From Kribbella caucasensis (lineage in GTDB: Bacteria; Actinomycetota; Actinomycetes; Propionibacteriales; Kribbellaceae): a stretch of 64,000 bases of DNA. Positions 1 through 29,315 of the stretch are shown in pieces; the first letter of the stretch is position 1; every line of letters starts with the position of its first letter. Below the pieces are notes generated by a model that had not been told where the DNA came from, searched no databases, and saw nothing but the letters and a program-made list of their open reading frames with translations. Made by a program: the position numbers and the translations under genes. Where the stretch lies: the NCBI RefSeq assembly GCF_004361855.1, contig NZ_SNWQ01000003.1, positions 496,001 through 560,000 on the forward strand. Direction: 5' to 3'.

Positions 1-1
1 G

Positions 2-6552: not shown

Positions 6553-6574
6553 CGAAGGCGACCAGAGGATCTGA

Positions 6575-8373: not shown

Positions 8374-8376
8374 CCG

Positions 8377-9096: not shown

Positions 9097-9228
9097 GACG
9101 CCACTGTCCCGCATAGGGGCACAGCCCCGACGTGGCTATTGCAGGCGATTGGAGCCCGGTGTTCGACTCCGTTTCGAGCTGGTCCGTCGCCGGTAAGGAA
9201 CCGGTGACCAGGTCACGAGGAGGCCTGT

Positions 9229-11907
9229 ATGTCTGGATCTTTGCGGCAAAGAACGCGGCTCCGCCTGCTGGCGATCAGCTGCTGTCTGGCCCTGACAGCG
9301 GCACTGGCGCCGGCGAACGCCGTCGCACAGGAGCGACCGTGGATGAACACGTCGCTGTCACCTGATCAACGAGCAGATCTGCTGCTCCAGGAGATGACAC
9401 TGGAGGAGAAGGTCGATCTGATGTCGGGCAACCAGGAGGACGGCAGGTTCGCCTTCTACAACAGCCCGATCCCCCGGCTAGGCATCCCGGAGCTGGCGAT
9501 GCAGGACTCGGCATCCGGCATCCACGCGCACGGCTGGAGCACGCCCAACACCGGCTCCGGCATCACGGCCCGTGCCACGGCGCTGCCCTCGGCACAGGCA
9601 CTCGGCGCCACCTGGTCGCGTGAGGCGACCAAGCGGTACGCGGCACTCGTGGCGACCGAGACCCGGGCCACCGGAGGCAACGTGCTGCTGAGTCCGGTGG
9701 GCGACATCCTGCGCAACCCGTACTGGGGCCGCACCAACGAGAGCCCCAGCGAAGACCCGATCATGACGGGCGACTACCTGACCGACTTCACCAAGGTCAT
9801 CCAGGACAAGGACGTCATCGCTACGCTCAAGCACTACCTGGCCTACAACCAGGAAACCAACCGCAGCAACGGCCAGAACAGCGTCGTCTCCGAGCGGGCC
9901 CTCCGCGAGGTCCACGCACTGGGCTACGAGGCCGCCATGGCCGATGCCGACCCCGGCAGCATCATGTGCTCGTTCAACAAGATCAACGGCGGCTACGGCT
10001 GCGAGAACCCGCACACCCTGCGCGGGTTCCTCGACAAGTTCGGCTTCACCGGCTTCGTCGGAACGGACTTCGGCGCCGCGCACACCACCCAGGGCTCGCT
10101 TGACGGCGGCGTCGACATCGAGACGGGCAACAAGGATGCCTACTCCGAGCACCTGCTCGCGGCCGTCCAGAACGGGAGCGTCCCCGAGTCGCGGCTCGAT
10201 GAGTCCTGCCACCGCATCCTGCGCACCATGTTCCGGCTCAACGCGTTCGACAACCCCGTCGAGGTCGCCCCGATCGACATCGCCCAGGGCAGCAAGGTCG
10301 CCCTGGAGACCCAGGAGATGGCAATCACGCTGCTCAAGAACACGGGCAACGCGCTTCCGCTGACCGCGCAGGCGAAGAAGATCGCCGTGATCGGCGCCGA
10401 CGCCGACCACAACGCGATCGGCGGCGGAACGCCGTTCGTCAACGCGACGGAGAAGACCTCGATGCTCGACGGCATCACCCAGCGTGCTCAGGCGGCCGGC
10501 GCCACGGTTCAGTGGGTGAAGGGCAACGACGAGGCCAACGGTGCGAACATGCTGGAGACCCGGGACATGACGGCCGTCCCGTCGTCGGTCCTGTCCCCGA
10601 CCAGCGGCCAGGGCACAGGCCTGAACGCCTCGTTCTGGAAGAACAACAACCTCCAGGGCGCGCCGGACGAGCAGCGCATCACGCCGCAGGTCAACTACGA
10701 CGTCGGCATTCTCAGCACGCTCGACACGCCGGGACCGTCCCAGGTCACGCCGCCGCCGGTGAACTGCCCGGTCTGCCCCGGCTCCGCGGTCTACGAGGGC
10801 CACATCACCGCACCGAAGACCGGCGCCTACAAGCTGGCCCTTACCGGCATGGGCGACGCGACCCTGGACATCGACGGTCAGCGGGTCGCCACGATGCAGG
10901 GCGAGGACAAGCGCCGTGCCTTCGCCGAGACCCCGACGCTCAACTGGGTCGAGGGGCAGACGCACACGCTGCGTGTCGAGTTCAGGGGAAACCACCCGTT
11001 CGAGATCCTGAACGACGGTTCCGTGCTGCTGCAGTGGAAGACCCCAGAGGGTGCGCACTCGCCGGAGATCCAGAAGGCTGTCGCTGCCGCGAAGAACAGC
11101 GACGTGGCCATCGTCTACGCAAACACCATCGAGGGCGAGGCCCACGACCGGGTGTCGCTGAAGCTGCCGCAGAGCGGTGACCAGCTGATCAAGGCAGTCA
11201 GCGAGGCCAACCCCAACACCATCGTGGTGCTCGCGACCGCGGGCACGGTGACCATGCCGTGGCTGGACAACGTCAAGGCCGTGGTGCAGACCTACTTCGG
11301 TGGTCAGCAGCAGGGCAAGGCGCTGGCTCGCGTGCTCTGGGGTGACGTGAACCCGTCCGGGAAGCTGACGATCACGTACCCGACCAGCGAGGACACGTTG
11401 CCGCCGGGGGTCGAGGGTCCGTACGCCAACTCCAACGACCTGGACGTGGAGTACACCGAGGGCGTCAACGTCGGCTACAAGGGTTACGAGACGGCGGGCA
11501 TCCAGCCGCTGTTCGAGTTCGGCCACGGAATGTCCTACACCTCCTTCGCGTACAGCGACCTGAAGGTGCAGGCGCAGCCCCAGTCCGCGGACAAGAAGCC
11601 CATCAACGTGCGCTTCAAGATCACCAACACGGGCGCGCGCGACGGTGACGAGGTCGCCCAGGTCTACCTCGGCCTCCCGTCCTCGACCGGGGAGGCGAAG
11701 CGTCTGGTGGGCTACGCCCGGGTGAGCACGAAGGCCGGCAAGTCCACGATGGCGAACATCCAGATCGACCCGGGCGCTTCCACCCATCCGCTCGGCTACT
11801 TCGACACCGCCAGCGACAGCTGGAAGATCGCGTCCGGCACCTACAAGGTGTACGTCGGCGGATCGTCGCAGAACACGCCGCTCGTCGGATCCTTCACAGT
11901 CCGCTGA
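9229..11907 (+). CDS. Secreted GH3 glycosidase with PA14 insert and Fn3-like C-terminus
   Basis: An 892-residue exported GH3 enzyme. It has a signal peptide of about 33 residues (RLLAISCCLALTAALAPANAVA), the GH3 barrel (MTLEEKVDLMSGNQ, NVLLSPVGDILRNPYWGR, TLKHYLAYNQE) and nucleophile motif GTDFGA with Asp280. A PA14 domain is inserted at about residues 464-610 (GLNASFWKNNN ... FRGNHPFEIL), then the GH3 C-domain resumes and ends in a fibronectin-like domain (VRFKITNTGARDGDEVAQVYLG). PA14 inserts in GH3 enzymes usually shape specificity for oligosaccharides. The architecture differs from the GH3-CBM6 enzyme at 2962, so the two probably act on different linkages. AGGAGG precedes the ATG, and a terminator follows the gene. 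Confidence 0.9.
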   Translation: MSGSLRQRTRLRLLAISCCLALTAALAPANAVAQERPWMNTSLSPDQRADLLLQEMTLEEKVDLMSGNQEDGRFAFYNSPIPRLGIPELAMQDSASGIHAHGWSTPNTGSGITARATALPSAQALGATWSREATKRYAALVATETRATGGNVLLSPVGDILRNPYWGRTNESPSEDPIMTGDYLTDFTKVIQDKDVIATLKHYLAYNQETNRSNGQNSVVSERALREVHALGYEAAMADADPGSIMCSFNKINGGYGCENPHTLRGFLDKFGFTGFVGTDFGAAHTTQGSLDGGVDIETGNKDAYSEHLLAAVQNGSVPESRLDESCHRILRTMFRLNAFDNPVEVAPIDIAQGSKVALETQEMAITLLKNTGNALPLTAQAKKIAVIGADADHNAIGGGTPFVNATEKTSMLDGITQRAQAAGATVQWVKGNDEANGANMLETRDMTAVPSSVLSPTSGQGTGLNASFWKNNNLQGAPDEQRITPQVNYDVGILSTLDTPGPSQVTPPPVNCPVCPGSAVYEGHITAPKTGAYKLALTGMGDATLDIDGQRVATMQGEDKRRAFAETPTLNWVEGQTHTLRVEFRGNHPFEILNDGSVLLQWKTPEGAHSPEIQKAVAAAKNSDVAIVYANTIEGEAHDRVSLKLPQSGDQLIKAVSEANPNTIVVLATAGTVTMPWLDNVKAVVQTYFGGQQQGKALARVLWGDVNPSGKLTITYPTSEDTLPPGVEGPYANSNDLDVEYTEGVNVGYKGYETAGIQPLFEFGHGMSYTSFAYSDLKVQAQPQSADKKPINVRFKITNTGARDGDEVAQVYLGLPSSTGEAKRLVGYARVSTKAGKSTMANIQIDPGASTHPLGYFDTASDSWKIASGTYKVYVGGSSQNTPLVGSFTVR

Positions 11908-11926
11908 CGGCAAGGCCGGGGGACGC

Positions 11927-11957
11927 AAGGGCGGGGCTCGCTCAGAGCCTCGCCCTT
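11927..11957 (+). terminator. Intrinsic-type terminator after GH3-PA14 gene
   Basis: A 13-bp stem with one G.U pair (AAGGGCGGGGCTC and GAGCCTCGCCCTT) encloses a 5-base loop, 20 bp after the stop of the GH3 gene. No long T run follows, as is common in actinobacteria. Confidence 0.75.
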
Positions 11958-11989
11958 GTCTGTGCTTCACATCCAGGAGATGGCAAGTT

Positions 11990-13171
11990 TTGAACACCTC
12001 TCGCGAGCTACGGACGGCGAACCGGACAGCTCTTGTGCAGGCCCTGTTCTTCGACGGGCCGGTGACCCGTGCACAGCTCGGTGCATCGTCAGGTCTCAGC
12101 CAGGCGTCGGTGAGCACGGTCATTTCAGAACTCGTCGCCGAAGGCGTGGTGACAGAGGTTGGGGCGCTGCGGTCCGACGGCGGCCGCCCCAGGCAACTGC
12201 TCAGAATCGCGCCAGACCACGCGTACGTCGTCGGCGTCGACGTCGGTGAACACTCCGTCCGTGCGACGCTCCACGACCTGTCCATGAAGGTTCTGGCCGC
12301 CGCCGACGTACCGCTTCCCGACGGGCCAGTGGTCGCCGACGTCGTCCGGGCGATCAGGACGCTGACCTCGGTCACAATGTCCGATGCCGCAGTCCCGTCC
12401 GGCTCGGTGCTCGGGGTCGGCATCGGCGTACCGGGCATTGTCACGCATGAGCCCGAGCCGTTCGTCCACAGCCAGGTGATCGGATGGGATGGGGTTCCGC
12501 TGCGCCGGTTGCTCGATCTCGGTCTGCCAGTTGCAGTCGGCAACGGGACAAGAGCAATGGGACAGGCCGAACTGTGGTTCGGTGCCGGCCGGGGAGCGCG
12601 CAACGTCGTGTTCGCGAAGCTGGACTACGGTGTTAGTGCGTCCTCTGCCGCCGACCGCGGGTCGGAGCGTCTGCCGACGCTCAGGACATGCGAGTGGGGA
12701 CACACCAGTGTGTCCGTCGACGGGCCAAGGTGCCGGTGCGGTACCCATGGCTGCCTCGAGACGTACGTCGGCGCGGACGCGATCGCACGCCGGTACGCGC
12801 GGGCGCGGGGGAAGCGGATCCGCGGTGGCTCCCGGAAGGCGATTGCGACACTGGTGAGCGAGGCGCCGGAAGACCCGACGGCCGCGGGGCTGATCGAAGA
12901 GATGGCGGGCTATCTCGGTGTCGGTATTGCGAATCTCGTCAATCTCTTCCAGCCGGACCGCGTTGTCCTGGGTGGCTGGGTGGGACTCGAACTGGGGCCG
13001 GCGCTGCTTCCCGAGCTGCGCCGGGTGCTCGCCAGCCGTACTCTCCGGCAACCGCTTGCACGCACCGAGCTGCGCCTGGCCGAACTGCGCACCCACGCGG
13101 AAACGACCGGCGCAGCGACGCTGCAGGTCGAACGCTTCCTCGCCCTCGGCGCCAGGCCGGTGCCGGGATGA
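11990..13171 (+). CDS. ROK-like regulator lacking the kinase aspartate
   Basis: A 393-residue winged-HTH/ROK protein. The DNA-binding part (VTRAQLGASSGLSQASVSTVISELVAEGVV) and the zinc cluster (PRCRCGTHGCLETYVG) are normal. The first phosphate loop is kept as GVDVGEHSVRATL. The usual catalytic DNDAN region instead reads GNGTRAMGQAELWFGAGR, and the following GIGAGLV-type loop reads GVSASSAADRG, so the sugar-kinase chemistry is almost surely lost while ligand binding may persist. Start is TTG at 11990 with AGGAGA upstream, since the in-frame alternatives are poor. It sits after the GH3-PA14 gene and overlaps the next possible start (13168) by 4 bp. It probably regulates the upstream glycosidase. 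Confidence 0.8.
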   Translation: MNTSRELRTANRTALVQALFFDGPVTRAQLGASSGLSQASVSTVISELVAEGVVTEVGALRSDGGRPRQLLRIAPDHAYVVGVDVGEHSVRATLHDLSMKVLAAADVPLPDGPVVADVVRAIRTLTSVTMSDAAVPSGSVLGVGIGVPGIVTHEPEPFVHSQVIGWDGVPLRRLLDLGLPVAVGNGTRAMGQAELWFGAGRGARNVVFAKLDYGVSASSAADRGSERLPTLRTCEWGHTSVSVDGPRCRCGTHGCLETYVGADAIARRYARARGKRIRGGSRKAIATLVSEAPEDPTAAGLIEEMAGYLGVGIANLVNLFQPDRVVLGGWVGLELGPALLPELRRVLASRTLRQPLARTELRLAELRTHAETTGAATLQVERFLALGARPVPG

Positions 13172-13269
13172 GTCGACAGCAGACGCAGCCCAGAGCGGAA
13201 CGGATCATGGACGAGACACCCAGTGACAATGCATCCCGATCGGACGCCGAACGTCGTACCGTCGTTCTT

Positions 13270-14142
13270 ATGGACAACCGTGCCGAGGTTCGCGAATTCC
13301 TGATATCGCGGCGCGCGAAGGTCAGTCCGGAGCAAGCCGGCGTCCCAGATGTCGGCGTCCGCCGGGTGCGCGGGCTCCGCCGCGGCGAAGTTGCCATGCT
13401 GGCAGGTGTGAGCATCGAGTACTACTCGAAACTCGAGCGGGGCGCCCTCGGTGGAGTCTCTGCCTCAGTGCTGGATGCGCTCGCCCGCGCACTGCAGCTG
13501 GACGACGCTGAACGAGCGCATCTCTTCCACCTCGCACATGCGGCCGACGGCACCAGTGCCGCGATGCGGCCGCGTCGACGTCCCGGAAGGCGCTGGACGC
13601 CACGCCCCAGCCTTATCTGGGTGCTGGATCAGTACGCCGCACCGGCGATCGTCCGCAACGGCCGGATGGACCTGCTCGCCTGCAACCAGCTGGGCCGTGC
13701 GATGCATGCCTCGCTGTACGACGCCACGGCAGGGACACGACCGAACTTCGCCCGCTTCACCTTCCTCGACCTCGAGGCGTCCCGCGACTTCTACCCTGAC
13801 TGGGATCGCGCCGCCGACACTTGTGTCGCGATCCTCCGTACTGAGGCCGGTCGTGACCCGCACGACAAGGATCTGCATGACCTTGTCGGTGAGCTCGCGG
13901 CCCGGAGCCCCGACTTCCGCCGCCGCTGGAGCACCCACGACGTCCGTTACCACGGCGCCGGCACCAAGACCTTCCATCACAGCGAGGTGGGCAACCTCGA
14001 ACTCGGCTACGAGAGCGTCGACATGCTCTCCGACCCCGGTCTCACCCTGACCCTGTACGTCGCCGAGCCCGGCTCGCCAACTGCCCAGGCCCTCGAACTG
14101 CTTGCCTCTTGGACGAGCCCGGCCGCTCAGGTCGAGGCCTGA
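13270..14142 (+). CDS. XRE-family regulator with MmyB-like ligand domain
   Basis: A 290-residue helix-turn-helix regulator. MDNRAEVREFLISRRAKVSP is the standard opening of this actinobacterial family. The HTH is seen as RRGEVAMLAGVSIEYYSKLERGALGGVS, followed by the MmyB-like domain (ILDQY-type segment WVLDQYAAPAIVRNGRMDLLACNQLGRAMH, and TKTFHHSEVGNLELGYESVDM). This domain resembles a PAS fold that binds a fatty acid or similar ligand in MmyB. I chose ATG 13270 by family length; an in-frame ATG at 13168 overlaps the ROK stop and would add 34 residues, so coupling with the ROK gene is possible. Many relatives regulate an adjacent SDR or oxidoreductase; here the neighbouring downstream genes are remnants. 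Confidence 0.85.
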   Translation: MDNRAEVREFLISRRAKVSPEQAGVPDVGVRRVRGLRRGEVAMLAGVSIEYYSKLERGALGGVSASVLDALARALQLDDAERAHLFHLAHAADGTSAAMRPRRRPGRRWTPRPSLIWVLDQYAAPAIVRNGRMDLLACNQLGRAMHASLYDATAGTRPNFARFTFLDLEASRDFYPDWDRAADTCVAILRTEAGRDPHDKDLHDLVGELAARSPDFRRRWSTHDVRYHGAGTKTFHHSEVGNLELGYESVDMLSDPGLTLTLYVAEPGSPTAQALELLASWTSPAAQVEA

Positions 14143-14150
14143 GCGGCCGG
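14119..14150 (+). terminator. Hairpin overlapping the XRE gene stop codon
   Basis: A perfect 13-bp inverted repeat (CCGGCCGCTCAGG and CCTGAGCGGCCGG) with a 6-base loop spans the TGA at 14140-14142. It probably acts as the terminator of the ROK/XRE transcription unit. Confidence 0.7.
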
Positions 14151-14206
14151 GCTGCTTCAGCCATTCCGGTCGTCCTGCGGGACTGAGCAGGACCGGTTCG
14201 TCGGTG

Positions 14207-14407
14207 TCAGGGCTGGGGTGCGTCGTGCTCCACGACCTTCTTCAGTTGGGCCAGTTCCTTCTGCCCGTCGACCTGGATCCCGTAGGTCCGGTCCCAGGTG
14301 AGCGGCGTGATCGAGATGTGGTCCTCGCCGACCACGGCTGCGACGGCCAGTGCTGCGCCGATCGTTGGTTTCCCAACAAATGGCGGCTTGCTCTCCGGGA
14401 CAAACAC
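14207..14407 (-). pseudogene. Short remnant, possibly C-terminus of a SurE-like nucleotidase
   Basis: A 66-codon open frame ending in GEDHISITPLTWDRTYGI and an acidic/basic tail. The SITPLxxDxT strand resembles the C-terminal strand of SurE-type 5'/3'-nucleotidases, but nothing of the catalytic N-terminal half is present upstream. I regard it as a decayed fragment; the assignment is tentative. Confidence 0.3.
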
Positions 14408-14489
14408 CCTCCCTCACATAGGCGCCGTGAGGAACATCTGTGAGAAGATGGGCCATCGTAAGCCGACTGCGGTGATCAGGACCGGTGAC

Positions 14490-14699
14490 GAGACCCCGGC
14501 GCTGGTGGATGCGTACTGCACCGTCTTGGATGCCTGCCGAGCCCATGGCAAATCCGTCGGCGTCGGTGGGTTGTCCTCGCGTCTGGATCTGGCCCGCCGC
14601 TTCGTCGACGCCCGCGCTCGGCACGTCTCGGTGGGCACTGATCTGTCCTTTCTCATCCACGAAGCCGAAGCAGCCCTCGCCGACCTCTCACTCGAGTGA
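14490..14699 (+). pseudogene. Remnant of HpcH/HpaI aldolase (C-terminal part)
   Basis: The frame reads TPALVDAYCTVLDACRAHGK, then VGVGGLSSRLDLARRFVD and RHVSVGTDLSFL, which matches the C-terminal third of HpcH/HpaI class II aldolases (KAVGVGG and VSVGTDLSFL are family marks). The metal-binding Glu/Asp and catalytic Arg/His of the N-terminal barrel strands are absent, and the upstream part of the frame is unrelated. It is therefore a gene fragment, non-functional as an aldolase, in a stretch with other remnants. Confidence 0.6.
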
Positions 14700-15151
14700 C
14701 CTGACTCGTGCCAGTTTCGTCGTTTGCCGCTCTAAACCGGCACGACTCGAGTGACATGGCCTGCGGATGAGCGACTGGACGATGCGACGGGCGATTCCTT
14801 CGCCGGGAGTTGATCAGGCAAAGGGTGGTTGGGCCCGCAAGTACGTCGTTCGTGCGGGAGCGCCTGAGGCGCCGGCTCCAGACTCGAGATGGGCGGTCGG
14901 CTGCGCGCCGGACGAAACCATCGCGACTGGTCGATCACCTGAGATCACGAGGCTTCAATCTCGAGACCGTCGGCTGGCGTGCTCAATCGCCGAACGCCGA
15001 AACCGTCGACCGCTTCCGCACCCACAGCTCTTCGCCCAGCACCGGAGTCGACGCCGATCGCGTTGCTCCGGCCTGTCTTCAGGTGCAGCGCGACCGTACT
15101 GGGTCGGCAATCAGCTCCGCGATCGCCTTCAAGACACAGCTCTGACTTTGC
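14700..15151. other. No gene recognised
   Basis: About 450 bp with only short, compositionally odd open frames on both strands. I see no domain, no convincing ribosome site and no repeat. It is flanked by gene remnants on both sides and is probably decayed coding DNA. Confidence 0.4.
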
Positions 15152-15277
15152 TTACCAGATGGTGAAGCGTCCGTCGACGATGAGGTTGGTGCCGGTGATG
15201 AAGCCGGCTGCTTGGCTGAGGAGGAAGACGATGGGGCCGGCGACTTCTTCGGGTTGGTCGTTGCGGCCGATCGGTTC
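15152..15277 (-). pseudogene. Remnant of a short-chain dehydrogenase C-terminus
   Basis: Forty-one codons plus TAA read EPIGRNDQPEEVAGPIVFLL, then SQAAGFITGTNLIVDGRFTI and a final W. This is the standard C-terminal segment of classical SDR enzymes (P-E-E-V-A, then F-I-T-G-xx-L-xVDGG). The Rossmann fold and the catalytic Ser-Tyr-Lys are missing upstream. It is a fragment only. Confidence 0.65.
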
Positions 15278-15312
15278 CGAGGTCGTGGGCGTCGAGAGCG
15301 ATCGCACCCGAA

Positions 15313-15799
15313 TCATGTCGTTGCTTGGTCGTCATCTGGACGACCACTTCGGCTCACGGACCTCGGTTGATCGGCTGCGGCGGCTCGGAGTGCGGTGAGC
15401 GCGAGGCTGTGGTCATCGGCTGAGGTCAGGCCGGAGACAGCGAGCACTCCGACCAGGGATCCGCTGACGCGGATCGGCACGGCACCACCAGTGGCGGCGT
15501 AGTCCCTGGGTGGGTAGCCCGAAGGCGGTGTGGAATCTCATCGGGTCGTCGGCGGCGTAGGTCTGGCCGACATCCTGGGATGACCGGTCGAAGCGTTGGA
15601 CGATGCGGGTCTTGCGCATGACCCAGTCGTCGTCGTCAGCGCTGGTGCCGGGGAGGGCAGCGTGGAAGACGCGTTTGTGCGCCGAGGTGAACGCTGATGG
15701 TGATGGCAGCTTTTGCGTCCGCGACTGGGTGACGAGGTCGACGCCCAACCGCCAGGCATCGTCGTGATCGAACGAGGCAAAGTCGGGTTCCTCAGGCAC
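15313..15799 (-). pseudogene. UPF0303 (HbpS/GlcG-like) gene with a one-base frameshift
   Basis: The gene starts at GTG 15799 with AAGGAG six bases upstream. The first frame carries the family text FASFDHDDAWRLGVDLVTQ, RVFHAALPGTSADDDDWV and RFDRSSQDVGQTYAADDP, then RFHTAFGLPTQ. At about 15504-15507 one extra base shifts the frame; in the next frame the family continues with DYAATGGAVPIRVSGSLVG, VLAVSGLTSADDHSLALTAL and ends at 15313. The intact protein would be about 160 residues, the family norm. UPF0303 proteins are small heme-binding/degrading-type proteins of unclear role. Either the gene was inactivated recently or the sequence has an indel error; ribosome site and codon use are otherwise intact. 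Confidence 0.75.
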
Positions 15800-15839
15800 G
15801 GTGGACTCCTTCAGCGAAGACCTTCATCGGCGGAGATGT

Positions 15840-16862
15840 CTAGAAGGTGAGGAGTACCTTCGTGGCGCGTCGTTCGTCCATGGCCTGGTAGCCCTCGGCC
15901 GCCTGGTCGAGCGGAAGCGTGAGGTCGAAGACCTTGCCAGGATCGATCTTCCGGTCCCAGATCAGGTGGATCAGCTCAGGTAGGAACCGTCGTACTGGTG
16001 CAGGCCCACCGTGCAGGTGGACGCCGGAGAAGAACATTTCCTCGCCCGGAAGCGCCACGTCGTGGCTCACGCCGACGTAGCCCACATGACCGCCGGCACG
16101 GGTCGACCTGATCGCCTGCATCATCGATTCCTGGGTTCCGACTGCCTCGATCACGGAATGGGCGCCGAGACCGTGGGTGAGCTCCTTGATCTTCTCCACC
16201 CCTTCATCCCCGCGCTCGGTCACGATGTCGGTGGCACCGAAGTCCAGGGCGAGTTTCTGCCGGGTCTCGTGCCGGCTCATCGCGATGATCCGTTCCGCGC
16301 CGAGTTGTTTGGCCGCGAGGACTCCAAGGAGGCCGACCGCGCCGTCGCCAACGACGGCCACGGTCTTGCCGGGGCCCGCCCCGGCGGCGACGGCGGCGAA
16401 CCATCCTGTGCCGAGTACGTCGGAGGCGGCCAGCGGAGACGGGATCAGCTCCGGGTCAGGTCGGCCGGGGGTCGTCACCAGTGTTCCGTCGGCCAGTGGG
16501 ATGCGGATGAACTCGGCTTGTCCGCCCGTCGCTGCCCCGGGTTGACGGTTGACACAGTGGGTCTGGTATCCGGCCTGACAGATCTCGCAGGTGTTGTCCG
16601 AGGCGAAGAATGAGCCGACGACGAAGTCACCGATCTTGGTGACGTTCACGTCGTCGCCGACCTGCTCGACGGCCCCGACGTACTCGTGGCCCATCGGTGT
16701 CGGCTGGTTGACGGGATCCTGGCCACGGTACGGCCACAGGTCCGACCCGCAGATGCAGGTTGCGGCGACCCGGATGACAGCGTCCGTGGGCTCGACGATC
16801 ACCGGGTCCTCACGCTCTTCGGTCCGGACATCGCCTGGGGCGTGCATTACTACACCACGCAT
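15840..16862 (-). CDS. Zinc-dependent alcohol dehydrogenase-like protein
   Basis: A 340-residue medium-chain dehydrogenase/reductase, cytoplasmic. The catalytic zinc site is seen as CICGSDLWPYRG and MGHEYVG, and the nucleotide fold as VAVVGDGAVGLLGVLAAKQLGAERIIAMSRH. The structural zinc loop keeps CEICQAGYQTHC, that is three of the usual four cysteines, so the structural zinc may be absent or bound differently. The family oxidises or reduces alcohols, sugars or aldehydes with NAD(P). The ATG at 16862 follows GAGGAG; the longer frame start at 16913 is not needed. It is divergent from the LLM gene at 17083 over 220 bp. Confidence 0.85.
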   Translation of the reverse strand: MRGVVMHAPGDVRTEEREDPVIVEPTDAVIRVAATCICGSDLWPYRGQDPVNQPTPMGHEYVGAVEQVGDDVNVTKIGDFVVGSFFASDNTCEICQAGYQTHCVNRQPGAATGGQAEFIRIPLADGTLVTTPGRPDPELIPSPLAASDVLGTGWFAAVAAGAGPGKTVAVVGDGAVGLLGVLAAKQLGAERIIAMSRHETRQKLALDFGATDIVTERGDEGVEKIKELTHGLGAHSVIEAVGTQESMMQAIRSTRAGGHVGYVGVSHDVALPGEEMFFSGVHLHGGPAPVRRFLPELIHLIWDRKIDPGKVFDLTLPLDQAAEGYQAMDERRATKVLLTF

Positions 16863-17082
16863 CGATTCTCCTCGAGGTCCAGGCAACGACTCGCGCCGCA
16901 CCATTCGGATCATGCAGGTGTCCAGGAGTGGTGGACCGCGTCGTACATCCTAGGTATCGAGGCCGTCTCGCTGAGATGCACTATCAGGGTATGTCAGACG
17001 GCTCACTAGCTTCGGTAATGTCGGGCTGTTGTGGGGCGGCGCGGCCTCGAGTAATGACTTCCTGAAACGTAAAGGTGCGGAC

Positions 17083-18072
17083 ATGCGATTTGGACTCTTC
17101 ATTCCCCAGGGATGGCGGCACGACCTCGTCGGTGTCGACCCGGCCGACCAGTGGGCGGTGATGCGCGATCTCGCCAGCGCGGCGGATTCCGGCCCTTGGG
17201 AGTCGCTCTGGGTCTATGACCACTTCCACACCATCCCAGTGCCGAGCGACGAGCCCACGCACGAGGCGTGGACCTTGATGGCCGCGTTCGCGGCCTCCAC
17301 CGAGCGCATCCGTCTTGGTCAGATGTGCACCTGCATGAGCTACCGCAATCCGGCGTACCTCGCCAAGGTTGCCGCCACTGTCGACCATGTCTCAGGTGGG
17401 CGGCTCGACTTCGGCATCGGCGGCGGATGGTACGAGCACGAGTGGCTGGCCTATGGCTACGGGTTCCCGTCGGCAGGCGAACGGCTGGCGCGGCTTCGCG
17501 AAGGGGTCGAGATCATGCGCCAGGCCTGGACGACCGGCACCGCGACGCTCGCCGGAAAGCACTATCAGGTGGACGGCGCAATTGTGCGGCCGCTGCCTCG
17601 CCAAGCCGGTGGCATTCCGATCTGGGTGGCCGGCGGGGGCGAGAAGGTGACCCTGCGGATCGCAGCGAAGTACGCCGCCTACACGAACTTCGGCGGTGAC
17701 CCGGAGACCTTCACCCGAAAGAGTGAGATCCTGCGCGGGCACTGTGCTGATCTAGGCACCGACTTCGACGCGATCACTCAGTCGATGGAGTTCCACACCA
17801 TCATCGGGGCAACCGAGGCAGAGGCCACCGAGCGTCGGCGGGCCATCGAGGCACGGCTGCTACCGGTGCTCGGTGAGGCGAACACGGCCAGCGCGATGGC
17901 GCCGTACGACGGACCGCAGGGCCTTGTCGGCACCCCCGAACAGGCGTACGAGAAGCTCGTCGCGAGCCGGGACCTCGGGATGGGGTACGCGATCCATTAC
18001 TTCCCGGAGTCGGCCTACGACCGGTCAGGAGTCGAGCTGTTCGAGCGCGAGGTGATCCCCGCGCTGGCGTGA
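17083..18072 (+). CDS. LLM-class F420-dependent oxidoreductase
   Basis: A 329-residue luciferase-like fold enzyme. Marks are RFGLFIPQGW at the N-terminus, SLWVYDHFHT, RLGQMCTCMSYRNPAYLAK, the motif VSGGRLDFGIGGGWYEHEW and IPIWVAGGGEKVTLRIAAKYA. The last two are typical of the F420 subgroup. It is longer than the LLM enzyme at 549 and only distantly like it, so it is not a recent duplicate. ATG 17083 is preceded by AAAGG. The ADH gene lies divergently, so both may belong to one small catabolic or detoxification unit. No substrate can be assigned. Confidence 0.85.
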   Translation: MRFGLFIPQGWRHDLVGVDPADQWAVMRDLASAADSGPWESLWVYDHFHTIPVPSDEPTHEAWTLMAAFAASTERIRLGQMCTCMSYRNPAYLAKVAATVDHVSGGRLDFGIGGGWYEHEWLAYGYGFPSAGERLARLREGVEIMRQAWTTGTATLAGKHYQVDGAIVRPLPRQAGGIPIWVAGGGEKVTLRIAAKYAAYTNFGGDPETFTRKSEILRGHCADLGTDFDAITQSMEFHTIIGATEAEATERRRAIEARLLPVLGEANTASAMAPYDGPQGLVGTPEQAYEKLVASRDLGMGYAIHYFPESAYDRSGVELFEREVIPALA

Positions 18073-18260
18073 ACGGCGGAGGTGGTCGCGCATCTTGAGG
18101 GTGAGCGGTAGTTAGCGACCACGTCGCGGTCGTCCGGTGTTGCCTGAAACTGTCCGCGATCGACGCTGATTCCCATCCTCATACCGTCCTCCTGGGTATT
18201 CCGGCTCGGAGATAAAGGCAGCAATTAGGTTGCGCGGCTGAACAGAGGGCTGGGGAATCG

Positions 18261-18287
18261 CGACCAACTAACGACCACTTTATGGCC
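18261..18287. repeat. Tandem 11-bp repeats, left of ssrA fragment A (putative integrase arm sites)
   Basis: CGACCAACTAA at 18261 is followed directly by CGACCACTTTA at 18272 and then TGGCC. The same 27 bases, with a few more upstream, recur at 45764-45790 beside the second ssrA fragment. The tandem 11-bp arrangement beside an attachment core is like arm-type sites for tyrosine recombinases. Confidence 0.55.
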
Positions 18288-18360
18288 GTCGGAAGTCAGC
18301 GACAGGCAAGCACTGGCAACTACGACAGGCCTGTAAAACAAGGAGTTCGGCGCCTGCCAA

Positions 18361-18416
18361 CCATGCACAACTATGTTGGCTCAAAGGACGGGGGTTCGAT
18401 TCCCCCCACCTCCACC
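18361..18416 (+). other. Fragment of the tmRNA (ssrA) 3' end: attachment-site scar A
   Basis: The segment has the conserved GGAC before the T-arm, a perfect T-arm (GGGGG, loop TTCGATT, CCCCC) and the acceptor strand CACCTCC followed by ACC. No 5' half with the matching GGAGGTG or a tag-peptide reading frame is present, so this is not a working tmRNA gene. Such 3' pieces are left when elements integrate into ssrA. A hairpin like the ssrA terminator follows at 18421, and a decayed recombinase lies next to it. Confidence 0.7.
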
Positions 18417-18420
18417 CTCG

Positions 18421-18459
18421 AGAACGCGCAGGTCAGAGCACGATTGACCTGCGCGTTCT
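18421..18459 (+). terminator. Hairpin after ssrA fragment A
   Basis: A perfect 15-bp inverted repeat (AGAACGCGCAGGTCA and TGACCTGCGCGTTCT) encloses a 9-base loop. It directly follows the tmRNA 3' piece and would be its terminator; a shorter counterpart follows fragment B. Confidence 0.7.
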
Positions 18460-18467
18460 GCTGTGCG

Positions 18468-18489
18468 CGACCACTTTATGACCAGTCTG
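18468..18489. repeat. Tandem 11-bp repeats, right of ssrA fragment A
   Basis: CGACCACTTTA at 18468 is followed by TGACCAGTCTG at 18479. The repeat unit matches the left-side pair at 18261 and the right-side pair at 45973. In the minus direction it overlaps the last codons of the decayed recombinase frame. Confidence 0.5.
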
Positions 18490-18735
18490 AGCAACAGCGG
18501 CTGGGGCACCGTGGCGACGCAACGCTGCGGACCCAGGGGGACATCCTGGGTCAGCGACGGCTTGGCATGGCCGAGGCGGTCAGCGATCTCGCGTACCGAC
18601 GGACCGGCCTCGTCCAGCCGGGTCACGACGGTCTTCCGGCACGTGTGAGACGTGACCCAGGCGAGGTCGGGGTTAACGCGCACCATCGCTGCCTTCATGT
18701 CGCGGTTGGCGTTGGATGGGTTCCATACCCCGCCC
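18490..18735 (-). pseudogene. Decayed tyrosine recombinase (C-terminal catalytic part)
   Basis: The frame shows WVTSHTCRKTVVTRLDEAG, then SVREIADRLGHAKPSLTQDV, the usual H-x-x-R, L-G-H and approach to the catalytic tyrosine of phage-type integrases. The family text then continues DVYMGR; here the tyrosine is replaced by proline (DVPLGP) and the frame drifts. Only about 80 codons upstream are recognisable and the N-terminal arm-binding and core-binding domains are missing. Its 3' end abuts the attachment scar, as expected for an element that encodes its integrase next to att. It cannot be active. Confidence 0.75.
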
Positions 18736-18952
18736 TTCAGGCGCTCCGCGCCGTCGCGGCGATGCCCGCAGTGATCCGTGATGGATCCTTGCGCAGCCGC
18801 TTTCGCCCACCGCAGTCCCCTGCCGCCGTTTGTCACCGAGGACCTCTCCGATCTGCTCGCTGACGTGGTTGCTGCGCCGTCGCTAGCCGTGCGGTTCGTC
18901 GTGGCCGGCCGGTGGTTTGTCCTGGGCCTTGGCGCCGCGGCTGCGGGTGATC

Positions 18953-20209
18953 CTACGAGCACGTACTGCCTGAGACGGCCGGCGGCCAGCAGGCGCGCGT
19001 AGGGGGCGGCGAACGGTCGAGCCGGCCGCGCCGTCGGTGGGATGCCTGGTGAGGGTTCGGCCTCACCAGCGGCGGATTGATACGCAGGCTGTGGCCGAAG
19101 ACCTGCGGCGCCACTACGTGGCCCTCCAGTTGCTGCAGAGCGACGAACAGCAGCGCCAGCCACAGCGCGGCCAGGGGATCGCCCTGGAACAACGCGACCA
19201 GGATCGGCGGAGCCGCACCAAGCACCAGGCCCAGGTACGGGATGAGCTCCATCAGCCCGTAGAAGACACCGAAGAAGACGGCGTAGGTCCGACCGGCGGG
19301 GAAGATCCCGAGTGCACCAAGCACCCACAGGGCGGTTCCGGCTTTGAGTCCCATGATGAGGCTGAACATGAGCTGACCGCGCACGTAACCCGACACCGCG
19401 CGCTGCACCCGGGCCGGTAGTCGTCCTCGATGCTGCCGTCACCGGGCGGCAGCACTTGCCGGGCCGGCGACCCGATCCGGCCACCATAGATCAGCATGTA
19501 GATGGTGATCACCAGCACCAGGATCAGCACGAACGCGGCCCCTGCGATCATGGTGACCAGGTCACTGGTGAACGCCACGACATTGCCGGTGCCCCGCAAC
19601 AGCGAGGCCTGCAAGGTTTCCAGCGCGGTCTCACCTGGGCGCTTGATCTCGACGCCGATACCCCGCTGATCCAGCCATTGCTGGAACCGCGCCAGCGAGG
19701 CGTTGGCCGAGTCGACCAGCCGCGGCAGATCGGCCTGGAGCGCCGACAGTTGCGCAGCGACCTGCCGAACCACCAACACAACGACACCGGCCATAACCAG
19801 GAAGAACGCCACGAACACGGCGCCGATGGCGATCCCCCGCGGTACGCGTGCCCGCTGCAGGGCGGTGACCAGCGGATTCACGATCGGCGCTACCACCACG
19901 GCGATCAGGAAGACCATCAGCACCGGAGCCGCAGCTCGAGCCAACCCGGTCAGCGCGAACAGTGCGACCGCCACCACGATCGCCTGAACCCACCGCGGCA
20001 CCACCACTGGCTCAACCGTCGGCGTCGGTGTGGGTTCCGCTGCGATCTTCGGTTCCGCCACGTCTGCTGCAACGGGTGCTGGGGTGTGCTCAGCGTCGAG
20101 AGGAGCCGCGTCGTCTGCCGGCGTGGCCGAGGTCAGGTCGTCGTCAGTCGGCCTTTTCCGTCGAGCGGCCTGGGGAGGTCGCCGGGTCGCCGGTGTGTCT
20201 ATTGCTCAT
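18953..20209 (-). pseudogene. AI-2E family transporter, broken by frameshifts
   Basis: A membrane protein of the AI-2E/PerM permease family (eight helices, about 350-400 residues). Frame one from 20061 shows RWVQAIVVAVALFALTGLA, VVAPIVNPLVTALQRARVPR and a periplasmic segment with LQADLPRLVDSANASLARF. After GDGSIEDDY at about 19420 one base is missing, and the next frame continues QRAVSGYVRGQLMFSLIMG, YAVFFGVFYGLMELIPYLG and QQLEGHVVAPQVFGHSLRIN, ending in unrelated residues in place of the last helix. A start at 20209 (MSNRHTGDP, ribosome site GGAGG) would need a further base change before the 20061 frame. With at least two or three lesions and a lost C-terminus it is a pseudogene. Confidence 0.75.
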
Positions 20210-20537
20210 AGGCCCCGCCTCCTTGCCCAGACCCGCGCACGACGGCGCACCGATCAACCCCTGGTTGGCGTTGCACCGGTACCCAACGCCTACACGCCCG
20301 TGACTAGTAGGGGTGCCGCCATGCTCGGTAGCGAGCGATGCCCTTGGCCTGGCCGATCAGCATGCCGGCATCGATGGCCTGCCACAGCCCTTCGGCTTGC
20401 TGTGCGGTGGCGACCGCGCTCGCGCGCGGGCTGGGTGAGCTGGTTTTCCGGCCAGCCGACGGGCCAGGAAGTCGATCAGGCAGATTGCGGCCGCCGATCG
20501 CGGCACCCTACTCTTGGCGGCACCTCACTGGACGGCC
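20210..20537. other. Intergenic, possible ANTAR-domain scrap
   Basis: No complete gene is visible. On the minus strand at about 20335-20425 the reading AEGLWQAIDAGMLIGQAKGI resembles the IGQAKGI helix of ANTAR RNA-binding domains, but it is isolated and has no start or partner domain. I see nothing else here. Confidence 0.3.
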
Positions 20538-22370
20538 TCAGCGGGGAGTGTGCCGGCCAGCACGGCCGCGGTGCGTGGCGGCCGGGTGGATCGGCTGGTC
20601 GCTGCGGTGCGGGTGTTCGTGGCCCAGCTGGAGTGCGCTGACCACGAGGGCGAAGTGGCTGAAGGCCTGGGGCGTGTTTCCCAGTTGACGCCGCGTCACG
20701 GGATCCCACTCCTCACTGAGCAGGCCGACGTCGTTGCGTAGGGCAAGTAACCGCTCGAAGAGGATCGTTGCCTCCTTGGTCCGTCCGGCGTAGTTCAGCG
20801 CGTCCACAAGCCAGAAAGAACAAGCGAGGAAGACGCCTTCGCCGGCGGGAAGGCCGTCCTCGCTGGTCTCCGTGCGATACCTCAGCACGAGCCCGTCCTG
20901 GGTGAGATCCCGCTGGACCGCTTCGACCGTCGCGATGACCCGGGGATCTGTGCCGGGAAGGAATCCGACGCGGGGGATGAGCAACAGGCTGGCGTCCAGA
21001 TCCGTGCTGCCATAGGACTGGACGAAGGTGCCGCGCCTGGCGTCGTAGCCGTTGGTGAGTACATCGGCGTGGATCGCATTGCGTAAGCGTTCCCAACGGC
21101 GGACAGGACCAGGGAGCCCGCCGTCACGGACGGCGCGGGCCATGCGATCGGCCGCGACCCAGGCCATCACTTTGGAGTGCGTGAAGTGGCGACGAGGTCC
21201 GCGCATCTCCCACAGTCCGTCGTCGGTGTCTTTCCAGTGGCCTCCGAGGTAGTCCATCAAGGCGACCTGGAGGTCCCACGCGTCGTCCGGCTTGCTGAGA
21301 TCGGCCTGGCGGGCGAGGTGGAGCCCGTCCAGGACCTCACCCCAGACGTCGAGCTGCAATTGACCGGCTGCTGCGTTGCCCGTTCGAACCGGCGTGGATC
21401 CCTCGTAGCCGGCTAGCCAGGGCAGGCTGGTCTCAGGCAGCCGGCGGGTGCCGTCGAGGCCGTACATGATCTGTAGTTTGCTGGGATCGCCGGCCACTGC
21501 CCGGAGCAGCCATTCCCGCCACGCCGTTGCCTCGTCGACGTATCCGGCTGCGAGGAGCGCCTGCAGGGTGAAGGTCGCGTCGCGCAGCCAGCAGTAACGG
21601 TAGTCCCAGTTGCGGGGACCGCCGAGCTGTTCCGGCAGCGACGTTGTCACCGCTGCGACGATGCCACCGGTAGGCCTGTAAGTGAGCGCCTTGAGCACGA
21701 TCAGCGAACGCTGTACGTCGTCGCGCCAGCGGCCGGTGACCGTTGAGCGCTCCGACCACTGCTCCCAGAAGTCGACCGTCTCGGCCAACGCACGCGCGGC
21801 ATCGACCGGCTTCGGTCTGCTGAGGTGGCTCGGCGCCCAGGTGAGGACGAACGGCACCGTGTCCCCGGCACGGACCGTGAACTCCGAGATGGTGCGATTG
21901 TCCCGGCCCTCCAGCGGAGCCGGCGTACGCAACCACGCCGAATCGGGCCCTGCAACGGCCTCGATGGCGCCGCCCACGTTGCGGACCCATGGGATGATCT
22001 GCCCGTAATCGAACCGCAGGCGCAGCTCGCCCACCATAGGCACGGCTCCACTGACACCCTGCACAATCCGGACGATGTCGGGCGCCTGGCCGCGCGGAGG
22101 CATGAAGTCGATGAGCCGCACGGTGCCCTCGGGCGTGTCCCATTCCGACTCCAGCACCAGGGTGTCGCCCCGGTAGCGCCTCCGTGTACAGGATCCGCCG
22201 GCCGCGGGAGCGAGCAGCCATCGGCCGGCTTCAGCCGTGTCCAGCAGCGCCGCGAAGCAGGCGCCGGAGTCGAAGCGCGGCAGGCACAGCCAGTCGACGG
22301 AGCCCTCCCTGCTGACCAGTGCCGCGGTATGGAGATCTCCCAGTAGGGCGTAGTCCTCGATATTCGTCAT
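20538..22370 (-). CDS. GH15-family glucoamylase/trehalase-like hydrolase
   Basis: A 610-residue cytoplasmic protein of glycoside hydrolase family 15. The N-terminal beta-sandwich begins IEDYALLGDLHTAALVSREGSVDWLCLPRFDS. The catalytic (alpha/alpha)6 barrel shows GGPRNWDYRYCWLRDATFTLQALL, a central DDGLWEMRGPRRHFTHSKVMAW with the likely acid Glu, and late LLSEEWDP with the likely base Glu. Actinobacterial members with this layout hydrolyse trehalose or alpha-glucosides. The 3' end beyond about VSALQLGHEH is low-complexity. The ATG overlaps the stop of the upstream sugar dehydrogenase by 4 bp, so the two are translationally coupled: glucose liberated by this enzyme could be oxidised by that one. 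Confidence 0.85.
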   Translation of the reverse strand: MTNIEDYALLGDLHTAALVSREGSVDWLCLPRFDSGACFAALLDTAEAGRWLLAPAAGGSCTRRRYRGDTLVLESEWDTPEGTVRLIDFMPPRGQAPDIVRIVQGVSGAVPMVGELRLRFDYGQIIPWVRNVGGAIEAVAGPDSAWLRTPAPLEGRDNRTISEFTVRAGDTVPFVLTWAPSHLSRPKPVDAARALAETVDFWEQWSERSTVTGRWRDDVQRSLIVLKALTYRPTGGIVAAVTTSLPEQLGGPRNWDYRYCWLRDATFTLQALLAAGYVDEATAWREWLLRAVAGDPSKLQIMYGLDGTRRLPETSLPWLAGYEGSTPVRTGNAAAGQLQLDVWGEVLDGLHLARQADLSKPDDAWDLQVALMDYLGGHWKDTDDGLWEMRGPRRHFTHSKVMAWVAADRMARAVRDGGLPGPVRRWERLRNAIHADVLTNGYDARRGTFVQSYGSTDLDASLLLIPRVGFLPGTDPRVIATVEAVQRDLTQDGLVLRYRTETSEDGLPAGEGVFLACSFWLVDALNYAGRTKEATILFERLLALRNDVGLLSEEWDPVTRRQLGNTPQAFSHFALVVSALQLGHEHPHRSDQPIHPAATHRGRAGRHTPR

Positions 22371-23422
22371 GGCCCGGCTGCCTCGAGGTCGAGGACCACC
22401 TTCACGTCGTCAGGCTGCCGAGCGAACGCTTCTGGATAACGATGAAGCGGAACGGTTCGGGTGATCAGCCGGCTCAACCAATCGCGGTCCGCAGCGGCCA
22501 GCGCACGGATCGCCTGCTCGTAGTGCCGCCGGTTGGCGTTGACGCTGCCGAAGATGACCTTGTTGCCGAGCACCGCCTCACGGTTGAGGGCGCCGACATC
22601 GAGCGGCAGCCGACTGCCGACTCCGGAAACGCCGGTCAGACAGACGATCGCGTCCGGTGCGCCGTTCGTCATCGCCTCGACGACGACCTCCGGCACCCCC
22701 GTGCACTCCATCAGCACATCGGCTCGCAAACCCGAGTCGGGCAGCGAGTCGGGGTGATAAGTGGCGCCAAGCGAGCGGACGAGATCCGGTTTGGGTCCAG
22801 CGGTGACGCGGTCGAAGACGTGCACGCTCAGGCCGCGCTGGACACCGAGCAGCGCTGCGAGCAGACCGACTGGTCCGGCGCCGGTGACGGCGACGACCCC
22901 AGGCTGCCAGAAGGCTCGCTTCCCGATCCGTTCCACCTGTTCCCAGGCCTTCGCCACGATGGTGGTCGGTTCGAGCAGAACACCGAGTCGTCCAAGCGAG
23001 GGGCTCAGCCGCACAACGGCGTCCGGCTCGGTCCGCCACCGCTCGCGGGCGAACCCGTGCAGGCCTCGGATCCCGTGCTCGGTGTATCGGCCGTTGCGAC
23101 ACATGTCCCACTCACCGGCGGCGCAGGCCGGGCATGGCTCAGGATCGGGACGACGCACGATGCCCACAACGAGATCACCCACCGACAGGCCGCTGCCCGA
23201 CGGAGCCTCCAGGACGCGCCCCAGATTCTCGTGACCGAGCACCAGGAAATCCTCGCTCGGCGGCGCCTCGCCGTACTCGCCGTTGATGATCTCAGAGTCG
23301 GTGCCGCACAGCCCGACCGCCAGTGACTGGATCAGCAGCGAGCCCACGTCGGGGTGTGGCTCAGCCATCTCTCTCAGGGTCGACGAACCCTGATCACCAG
23401 GCCGAACCGTGAGGGCCAGCAT
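22367..23422 (-). CDS. Glucose/sugar 1-dehydrogenase, MDR family
   Basis: A 351-residue zinc-dependent medium-chain dehydrogenase closest in style to microbial glucose 1-dehydrogenases. Cys39 and TD in GLCGTDSEIING with GHEN at residue 64 mark the catalytic zinc; PCPACAAGEWDMCRNG is the structural zinc loop. The nucleotide fold is GVVAVTGAGPVGLLAALLGVQRGL. The proteins of this subgroup oxidise glucose to gluconolactone with NAD(P). ATG 23422 begins LALTVRPGDQG, the normal opening; an upstream in-frame ATG at 23494 would add 24 residues without family support. It is coupled to the GH15 gene, which supports a role in trehalose/glucan-to-gluconate flow. The 210-bp upstream region is shared with the divergent secreted-protein gene. 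Confidence 0.8.
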   Translation of the reverse strand: MLALTVRPGDQGSSTLREMAEPHPDVGSLLIQSLAVGLCGTDSEIINGEYGEAPPSEDFLVLGHENLGRVLEAPSGSGLSVGDLVVGIVRRPDPEPCPACAAGEWDMCRNGRYTEHGIRGLHGFARERWRTEPDAVVRLSPSLGRLGVLLEPTTIVAKAWEQVERIGKRAFWQPGVVAVTGAGPVGLLAALLGVQRGLSVHVFDRVTAGPKPDLVRSLGATYHPDSLPDSGLRADVLMECTGVPEVVVEAMTNGAPDAIVCLTGVSGVGSRLPLDVGALNREAVLGNKVIFGSVNANRRHYEQAIRALAAADRDWLSRLITRTVPLHRYPEAFARQPDDVKVVLDLEAAGP

Positions 23423-23551
23423 TGTCGCCGCACGCACTCGTGGAAAATGGTGTGCACCCTCGTGCGAACTTACTTCGTTCCTGAGATCGCGCACCGGGCA
23501 CTCCTTGTCCGATCTGGCGGGTCGTGTACTCGTCCAGCTTCGGGCACGTCC

Positions 23552-23586
23552 GATGAGAGCGAGATGAGAACGACTGAACGGTTCAG
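23552..23586. promoter_or_regulatory. Direct repeat GATGAGA x2 (11-bp period) and adjacent palindrome
   Basis: GATGAGA occurs at 23552 and 23563, an 11-bp period typical of OmpR-family response-regulator sites. It is followed by the palindrome CTGAAC-G-GTTCAG at 23574-23586. Both lie in the divergent space between the sugar dehydrogenase and the secreted protein gene. Confidence 0.4.
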
Positions 23587-23631
23587 CGACGCCGGCAATC
23601 CAGCTGGATAAGGGGTTGTAGTGTCAGAACC

Positions 23632-24156
23632 GTGCGCAGAATCGTTGTGATTCTTCTCCTGGCCGCTCTGGCTCTGGCAGGTTCCGGGGCTGCCGCCCAC
23701 ACGCTTCGGGCATCACGCGCCCAGGCGGCGCACCGGTCTTCGTCAGGCTTCCGAGCGTCGGCGCCGCCATCCACGAGTGCAACGAACCTCGTGATGACGA
23801 ACGGTGTACGGAGGCAGTTGATCGCAGCAGCGGCCAAAATCAATGGCGACGTCCCGGTCTCGGAGTTCAAAGGGCTGGAGCCGCAAGGAAGCCACTATGC
23901 GTATGACCCGGCGACAGAAACATACTGGGCAGCCGCTTCGCTTCTTCCCCGCGACGATTCCTCCGCCGCGGCGGTCGCCGTACAAGACAACGGCTCCTAC
24001 AACGTCTTCCGCCGAAGCGTCGGAGAATCGTGGACGGCGTACGACGTGGGGCTGGCCGGTGTCGGTGGAACGGGGTGCCCCATCACCTTGCCACCAACGG
24101 TCTTGCGTCTGTGGGGCTGGCCAAGCAACAGCTGCAGGGACAGCCCGCCATCCTGA
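23632..24156 (+). CDS. Secreted protein of unknown function
   Basis: A 174-residue exported protein starting at GTG. The signal peptide is clear (RRIVVILLLAALALAGSGAAAHT). The mature part shows QLIAAAAKINGDVPVSEFKGLEP, SHYAYDPATETYWAAASLLP, then AVAVQDNGSYNVFRRSVGESWTAY and a Cys-bearing end (GGTGCPITLPPTVLRLWGW, then SNSCRDS), so one disulfide is likely. Similar small exported proteins are frequent in Kribbella-like and Streptomyces genomes, but I know of no assigned function. A pair of 11-bp-spaced repeats precedes it by about 63 bp, which suggests control by a response regulator. Confidence 0.7.
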   Translation: MRRIVVILLLAALALAGSGAAAHTLRASRAQAAHRSSSGFRASAPPSTSATNLVMTNGVRRQLIAAAAKINGDVPVSEFKGLEPQGSHYAYDPATETYWAAASLLPRDDSSAAAVAVQDNGSYNVFRRSVGESWTAYDVGLAGVGGTGCPITLPPTVLRLWGWPSNSCRDSPPS

Positions 24157-24326
24157 GCACGACCGCTCCCGCCACGTCCTGGCGATGGCGCCCGATTGCA
24201 GCTAGCAGGTACGGCGATTTCCGGCTGGCGGGGTGCGGCGATCGGCGCTGGCCGTGACGACACAAGGTTCCCGCCGGGCGAGCCTGATTGCCTGAAGATG
24301 TCCACACATCGGCAGGGAGCGACCTT

Positions 24327-24581
24327 ATGAGTGACTGGCGGATGCGTGGCGCCTGTGTGGGCGAGGATCCGGAGCTGTTCTTCACCATCGGGCACGCCGA
24401 GCCTGCGCGGCGGCAGATCGAGGAAGCAAAGCAGGTGTGCCGCCGCTGTGAGGTGATCGAGGCATGCCTGGGATGGGCGTTGGATACTCGGCAGGATGCA
24501 GGTGTCTGGGGCGGGCTTTCAGACGACGAGCGCCTGAGCATGATCCGCCGGGCATCCCGCCCAAAGCCAAGGAGCGCCTGA
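24327..24581 (+). CDS. WhiB-family [4Fe-4S] transcription factor
   Basis: An 84-residue Wbl protein. Four cysteines in the standard spacing are present: one in RGACVGEDPELFF, two in VCRRCEV and one in EACLGWAL. The turn motif GVWGGLSDDER and a short basic tail (RRASRPKPRS) follow. Wbl proteins bind an iron-sulfur cluster, usually partner the primary sigma factor and respond to redox or developmental cues. The ATG at 24327 follows GGGAGCG; the upstream in-frame start at 24288 is less likely. It stands alone between the secreted protein and the FtsH operon. Which Wbl class it belongs to is not clear; WhiB1- or WhiB2-like specific motifs are not evident. Confidence 0.85.
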   Translation: MSDWRMRGACVGEDPELFFTIGHAEPARRQIEEAKQVCRRCEVIEACLGWALDTRQDAGVWGGLSDDERLSMIRRASRPKPRSA

Positions 24582-24925
24582 GAACTGCCGGCCCCACGCC
24601 CGATCCCCAGGAACAGCAAGGTCCTGCCGCTCGCGGACGATGGTTCCGCCTGACACCCAACCGCTCACCAGCCGCGAAGGGTCAGCGGATGTCGGCTTCC
24701 TCCGGTACGACCTCGTCGACCATCTGTTGGATGTGTTCGGTCTGTGGGCTACATGGCGCGCCTCATCATGCGGCCTCGCCTTCAGCGGCGGTCGTCACCA
24801 TGAATGACTGTGCAACTACCGTGCACGGTTGCATGGCTCGGTCCGGCTCTTTCACGAAGTTCTCATGAACTCGCCGGCAGGGTTGATGGTGACGCCGTAC
24901 CCGGCGTCGTCCGAAGGAGCAGACC
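24582..24925. promoter_or_regulatory. Upstream region of the ftsH operon with response-regulator-type box
   Basis: No gene is recognised in these 344 bp. TTTCAC at 24850 and TCTCAT at 24861 are imperfect direct repeats with an 11-bp period, 60-76 bp before the FtsH start. In the reverse sense this is ATGAGA-N5-GTGAAA, which also occurs at 31101-31117 in front of the first histidine-kinase gene. GAAGGAG precedes the FtsH ATG. Confidence 0.4.
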
Positions 24926-26848: not shown

Positions 26849-26864
26849 CCGAGGGGACACAACC

Positions 26865-27374: not shown

Positions 27375-27396
27375 GAAGGCCGTAGAGAGGAGCGAG

Positions 27397-29306: not shown

Positions 29307-29315
29307 GCGGCTACC

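Follow-up and report, generated by a model that had tools for sequence, protein, structure and literature searches.

Tandem 11-bp repeats beside ssrA 3' end copies in Kribbella caucasensis: putative arm-type attachment sites of stacked integrated elements

Repeats and ssrA end copies in the window

The window analyzed is a 64,000-bp stretch of the 9.46-Mb draft genome of Kribbella caucasensis (C3:496001-560000). Its main features are two copies of the ssrA 3' end, scars A and B, each accompanied by short tandem repeats, and the cargo genes between and beyond them (Table 1). No tmRNA was called in the window by ARAGORN or by Rfam at the gathering threshold, because the scars hold ssrA 3' pieces only. 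Exact matches to CGACCA(A/C)(C/T)T(A/T)A start at positions 18261, 18272, 18468, 45764, 45775, and 45973, all six on the + strand and none away from the scars; 0.03 were expected, and six or more were obtained in 0 of 100 shuffles. The sequence-only reading had listed eight units at the scars. Six of the eight fit its consensus, whereas the outer right units at 18479 (TGACCAGTCTG) and 45984 (CGACCAGTGTC) are degenerate, keeping only (C/T)GACCA and the 11-bp phase. A third, degenerate unit follows each left pair, at 18283 in scar A and at 45786 in scar B. Over 328 kb of contig C3, a tandem 17-bp pattern gave six + strand matches, all at ssrA cores, none on the - strand, and none in 30 Markov simulations. 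The genome-wide search for the 11-mer proposed in that reading, run with a looser tandem pattern, likewise led back to ssrA cores (seven of eight matches).

Table 1. Positions of the att-like sites, integrase remnants, and elements in the window.
Feature	Position	Strand	Remarks
Element 1, right end	1..18254	.	267 kb; starts at intact ssrA outside the window (C3:246992)
Scar A left arm	18261..18293	+	11-mers 18261-18271 and 18272-18282; degenerate third unit 18283-18293
Scar A 10-bp-spaced CAAC/CAAG repeats	18306..18376	+	18307, 18317; 18358, 18368; candidate excisionase sites
Scar A core	18384..18415	+	ssrA 3' end copy (T arm, acceptor end)
Element 2	18416..45757	.	27.5 kb core to core; no intact integrase
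Scar A hairpin, core to right arm	18421..18459	+	probable terminator carried by the element
Integrase 3' remnant, element 2	18432..18740	-	integrase residues 295-410, 61% identity; overlaps right arm
Scar A right arm	18468..18489	+	18468-18478 exact; 18479-18489 degenerate
Scar B left arm	45764..45796	+	11-mers 45764-45774 and 45775-45785; degenerate third unit 45786-45796
Scar B 10-bp-spaced CAAC repeats	45809..45880	+	45810, 45820; 45862, 45872; candidate excisionase sites
Scar B core	45887..45919	+	33-bp ssrA 3' end copy
Integrase remnant, element 3	45919..46002	-	last 28 codons, 71% identity; covers right arm; rest gone
Scar B hairpin, core to right arm	45928..45962	+	probable terminator
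Scar B right arm	45973..45994	+	45973-45983 exact; 45984-45994 degenerate
Mycofactocin cluster, element 3	46152..52688	.	mftF, SDR, mftE, mftD, mftC, mftB, mftA (51852-51989, by reading), mftR

The 27-bp left arm is the most conserved part of the module, with 89% identity across six sites and 95% among the five sites of this genome. The corresponding values were 65% and 69% for the 97-bp interval between left arm and core, in which the best 27-column window reached 76%, and 32% and 33% for the 30 bp that precede the conserved module. The hairpins between core and right arm are of sequence types AACGCGCAGG, AAGTGCCTGG, and GAAGCCGCTG with the pairing kept, and these element-borne hairpins probably replace the ssrA terminator; a hairpin after ssrA is present in many congeners, with arms or without. 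In the T stem of the scar A core, a paired C-G to G-C swap (ACGGGGG...CCCCCC) was observed that was not seen in the ssrA genes examined, and the element may have originated in a host whose ssrA differs.

Intact ssrA, further scars, and related genomes

The intact ssrA gene (C3:246610-246991, + strand) is located on the same contig and strand, with scar A 267 kb downstream. A right arm (CGACCAATTAA CGACCAACTTA) was found 53 bp past the ssrA end and, beyond it, a full-length tyrosine integrase gene oriented toward ssrA; there is no left arm at the intact gene. Scars A and B each have a left arm, a core, and a right arm. The search for other ssrA 3' pieces, also suggested from the window alone, revealed three further scars, one near the end of C3 (scar C, C3:568073, with 225 bp left before the contig stops) and one each on C11 and C43, all with a left arm only. 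The genome thus contains five left-arm/core sites, with at least three elements on one contig. This pattern, in which ssrA has just a right arm, the outer scars just a left arm, and A and B the complete pair, agrees with the earlier proposal that two-sided arms mark a junction between elements, and the array of at least three elements at ssrA that had been proposed with it was borne out on the single contig carrying intact ssrA and scars A and B. Low-scoring tmRNA matches on C12, C35, C6, C1, and C8 resemble tRNA genes or fragments of tRNA-like sequence and were not counted as scars.

The closed genome of a congener (G012) served as a single-element control. Its single ssrA carries a right arm next to an intact integrase gene (66% identity), and 199 kb downstream of ssrA lies exactly one left arm with core, the pattern that would be expected of a single integrated element. 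A search of the remaining 36 congeners turned up no core besides the 3' end of ssrA itself. The right-arm consensus scored at least 15/22 in nine congeners, including this genome and G012, and in each of the nine the best-scoring position fell between +80 and +83. Seven of them have no integrase match beside ssrA; therefore, a relic arm can outlive the integrase gene.

A marker gene (C11:8360-9700) lies just beyond the C11 scar. In 28 relatives with both genes on one contig, it follows ssrA at a distance of 3.6-54 kb and has the same orientation, and in G012 it is 222 kb from ssrA. Since ssrA and the marker are near neighbors in the 28 relatives and are placed on C3 and C11, respectively, in the host genome, the simplest explanation of the C3 sequence beyond 247k is that it is additional DNA inserted between them, with a contig gap still present. 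Scar C (C3:567932-568298) and the C11 scar (L025:5290-5656) are followed by similar native-type flanks (90% identity); a simple array predicts one such flank, and the presence of two counts against it. The C43 scar, near a contig end, is followed by a different sequence.

Integrases of Actinomadura, 57-59% identical, are likewise located at ssrA, with a right arm of CGCCCACTTTA CGCCCACNTTA or a near variant at +82. In several of these genomes, the integrase gene stops just where the second right-arm unit ends, so that the right arm is essentially non-coding there. The presence of left arms was predicted beforehand, and the genomes were then searched with the ssrA core alone. Exactly one further core was detected in each of four genomes (8.0, 14.3, 15.2, and 38.0 kb away), preceded at 137 or 138 bp by a left arm built from 11-bp units in the same way. 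Distances from the core are fixed, with the right arm at +81 to +83. The left arm lies at -126 to -128 from the core in Kribbella and at -137/-138 in Actinomadura, a shift of 10-12 bp or about one helical turn. The fifth genome (A. syzygii) has two further cores, of which one is degenerate and the other has a clear left arm. In this genome, the site at L206 carries both arms and is probably another tandem junction; L206 and L213, with one two-armed core and one degenerate core, are probably a second tandem array.

Integrase, candidate excisionase, and content of the elements

The integrase of element 1 has a PF00589 match and RHRY-type motifs. Its reading frame (C3:246876-248237, equal to L023:6877-8238) has no stop before ssrA and, in this genome as in G012, runs through the right arm and core into ssrA antisense. 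When the element ends were joined in silico, the predicted C-terminal tail of the integrase became 23-32 residues shorter in the excised circle. In structure comparisons that included Foldseek, the model of the Actinomadura integrase resembled Tn1549 Int (Z 23) and lambda Int (Z 18) across both the core-binding and the catalytic domain. The first 62 residues are predicted to form three strands and a helix, which is the layout of known arm-binding domains; a Foldseek search with this N-domain alone gave no significant structural match. The N-terminal domain would be the part of the integrase that binds the 11-mers. Relatives in plasmids were limited to two matches of 32-33%, none close, and those in phages, among the matches listed, were 36-39% identical. 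Relatives at tRNA-Lys (41-44%) have, by eye, CCCC-type pairs with 11-bp spacing near the integrase end.

The interval between left arm and core is rich in CAAC. In 12 sites, 50 occurrences were counted (shuffle mean 7.6, maximum 17), and 23 pairs were spaced by exactly 10 bp, whereas no pair was spaced by 9 or 11 bp; the 12 sites are related, so the counts are not independent, but copy number and position vary between the two lineages. Besides scars A and B, the repeats were noted at L202, L203, L206, L210, L211, and L213. A gene for a 62-aa HTH_17 protein (C3:248848-249036) adjoins the integrase gene, with a counterpart 88% identical in G012 and distant ones in Actinomadura, and an XRE-type gene is also kept there. 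RdfS, an excisionase of the HTH_17 group, binds as one molecule per 10 bp (PMC11963761). The CAAC repeats are thus candidate excisionase sites, which the small HTH_17 protein may bind.

Element 1 (267 kb) encodes, besides the intact integrase, a TrwC relaxase and a VirD4-type T4CP; TrbL was matched weakly. The integrase, T4CP, and relaxase domains (PF00589, PF02534/PF12696, and PF08751, respectively) all lie between its att sites, and its ICE block is collinear with that of the G012 element (65-78% DNA identity). The VirB4-like match is weak (AAA_10, E 0.001, below the curated cut-off). Apart from this match, the gene content of element 1 is what PMC3218068 requires of a T4SS-type ICE. It may be composite, because a second integrase fragment was found inside it (C3:475776-476063, 31% identity). 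A second TrwC relaxase is encoded on contig C50 (C50:3042-4097).

Elements 2 (27.5 kb) and 3 (26.2 kb) carry genes of ordinary metabolism and regulation. The cargo of element 2 includes an AI-2E transporter piece, GH15, FtsH, MFS, Usp, two-component systems, UbiA, and others. In element 3, mftC-F and mftR were assigned by NCBIfam and mftA by reading; MftC was not found in the 37 other genus members searched. No transfer genes were detected among the proteins scanned in either element, the search of element 3 beyond position 64000 being for TrwC relaxase only. With arms and core kept and the integrase reduced to 3' stubs, both elements appear CIME-like. About 115 integrase codons are retained in element 2 and 28 in element 3, and this greater loss with distance from ssrA would fit stacking with the newest element inside.

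Proposed model, alternatives, and relation to known systems

The most strongly favored reading is that the tandem 11-bp units represent the arm-type sites of an att system used by a tyrosine recombinase and that the elements are stacked at ssrA; we hold it with high confidence for the layout, while binding and mobility are putative. It draws on the layout, conservation, and spacing of the repeats, the single-element control, and the Actinomadura prediction, all read from sequence. The repeats are very probably docking sites for the ssrA-inserting integrase. A full attP would consist of a left arm (two to three 11-bp units), two 10-bp-spaced CAAC clusters, the 33-bp ssrA core, a hairpin, and a right arm (two 11-bp units). 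Integration would split it, joining the integrase end with its right arm to ssrA, whose 3' end is thereby restored, and the far end, with the left arm and a core copy, to the chromosome. Each new arrival at ssrA would push older elements outward, so that every inner boundary would acquire the order left arm-core-right arm, the same layout as attP. Elements 1 (267 kb), 2 (27.5 kb), and 3 (26.2 kb) would have been stacked in this way on one contig. Elements 2 and 3, having lost their integrases and kept their ends, could be excised together with element 1 and may still be mobile.

One point that weighs against arm-type sites is that the right arms in this genus lie in the integrase frame, where conservation could be partly coding. 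The sequence-only reading had itself raised the possibility that the repeats are nothing but conserved 3' codons of the integrase gene family, unrelated to binding; the codons in question read LVVKWS/LVIKWS. In this genus the objection partly applies: the right arm falls in the last integrase codons of this genome and of G012, and scar B retains exactly the last 28 codons. It fails for the left arms, which lie at the element end opposite the integrase gene, and for Actinomadura, where the right-arm repeats stand at or beyond the stop codon, yet unit, tandem arrangement, and distance are kept. With the Actinomadura right arm outside the integrase gene and the left arm at the other end, the repeats are therefore not merely integrase codons, and a purely coding origin is considered highly improbable. 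It also seems unlikely that the 11-mers are accessory att sites for an excisionase or another small DNA-binding protein instead of the integrase. The HTH_17 and XRE-type genes conserved beside the integrase, and the fact that direct repeats can serve as excisionase sites, speak for such a role; yet an excisionase is better matched by the separate 10-bp set, which is confined to the left-arm side (one RdfS per 10 bp, PMC11963761), and the 11-mers occur on both sides of the core, like integrase arms (PMC8074189).

Segmental duplication or misassembly of a single att site, in place of separate integrations, would agree with the roughly 370 bp shared at 90% identity, flank included, by scar C and the C11 scar, and with the several contigs that end near scars. 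This origin is very unlikely: the left-arm modules of this genome differ from one another (interval identity about 69%) and are preceded by unrelated DNA, C43 and C11 have almost only the att module in common with C3, and the same design occurs in the closed genome G012.

The array resembles several known systems. Tandem accretion of ICEs and CIMEs of the ICESt1 type (reviewed in PMC5704250) similarly stacks elements at one 3' gene end, the inner ones decayed with att ends kept; in the present case integration is at ssrA, a 267-kb element leads the array in an actinobacterial host, and excision is putative. The ssrA islands of Dehalococcoides (PMC3146451) are also numerous, in tandem downstream of ssrA, each bounded by an ssrA 3' end copy, and some are without an integration module, but they depend on the serine recombinase DsiB and a 20-bp repeat, in contrast to the tyrosine integrase and two-sided 11-bp arms found here. 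In T4SS-type ICEs of Actinobacteria (PMC3218068), too, a single element carries Int together with a VirD4-type T4CP and TrwC relaxase, and tandem elements at tRNA genes have been reported in Frankia and Streptomyces (PMC3218068); the present array differs in its integration at ssrA, its much larger size, and its integrase-less members. The lambda/Tn916-type attP of Oenococcus prophages (PMC8074189) also has short direct repeats on both core sides and an integrase gene ending at att, whereas here a CG(A/C)CCACTTTA family is arranged in 11-bp tandem at fixed distances with extra 10-bp CAAC clusters. PAISt of Streptomyces turgidiscabies (PMC4057263) is comparable as a very large actinobacterial ICE that excises in modules, and uses an 8-bp palindrome in bacA instead of ssrA.

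More tentatively, a compact attP module of 11-bp arms and 10-bp excisionase sites, both repeat types following the turn of the DNA helix, may be common to ssrA elements of 8-267 kb in two actinobacterial lineages, with integrase-less islands, including the mycofactocin one, riding a resident ICE and the integrase tail varying with the integration state. The fully laid-out att site (arms, core, and candidate excisionase sites) is usable as a search pattern for island boundaries. For the genus, end-to-end island stacking at ssrA would be the route by which mycofactocin entered a group with no other MftC match among the 37 further members searched.
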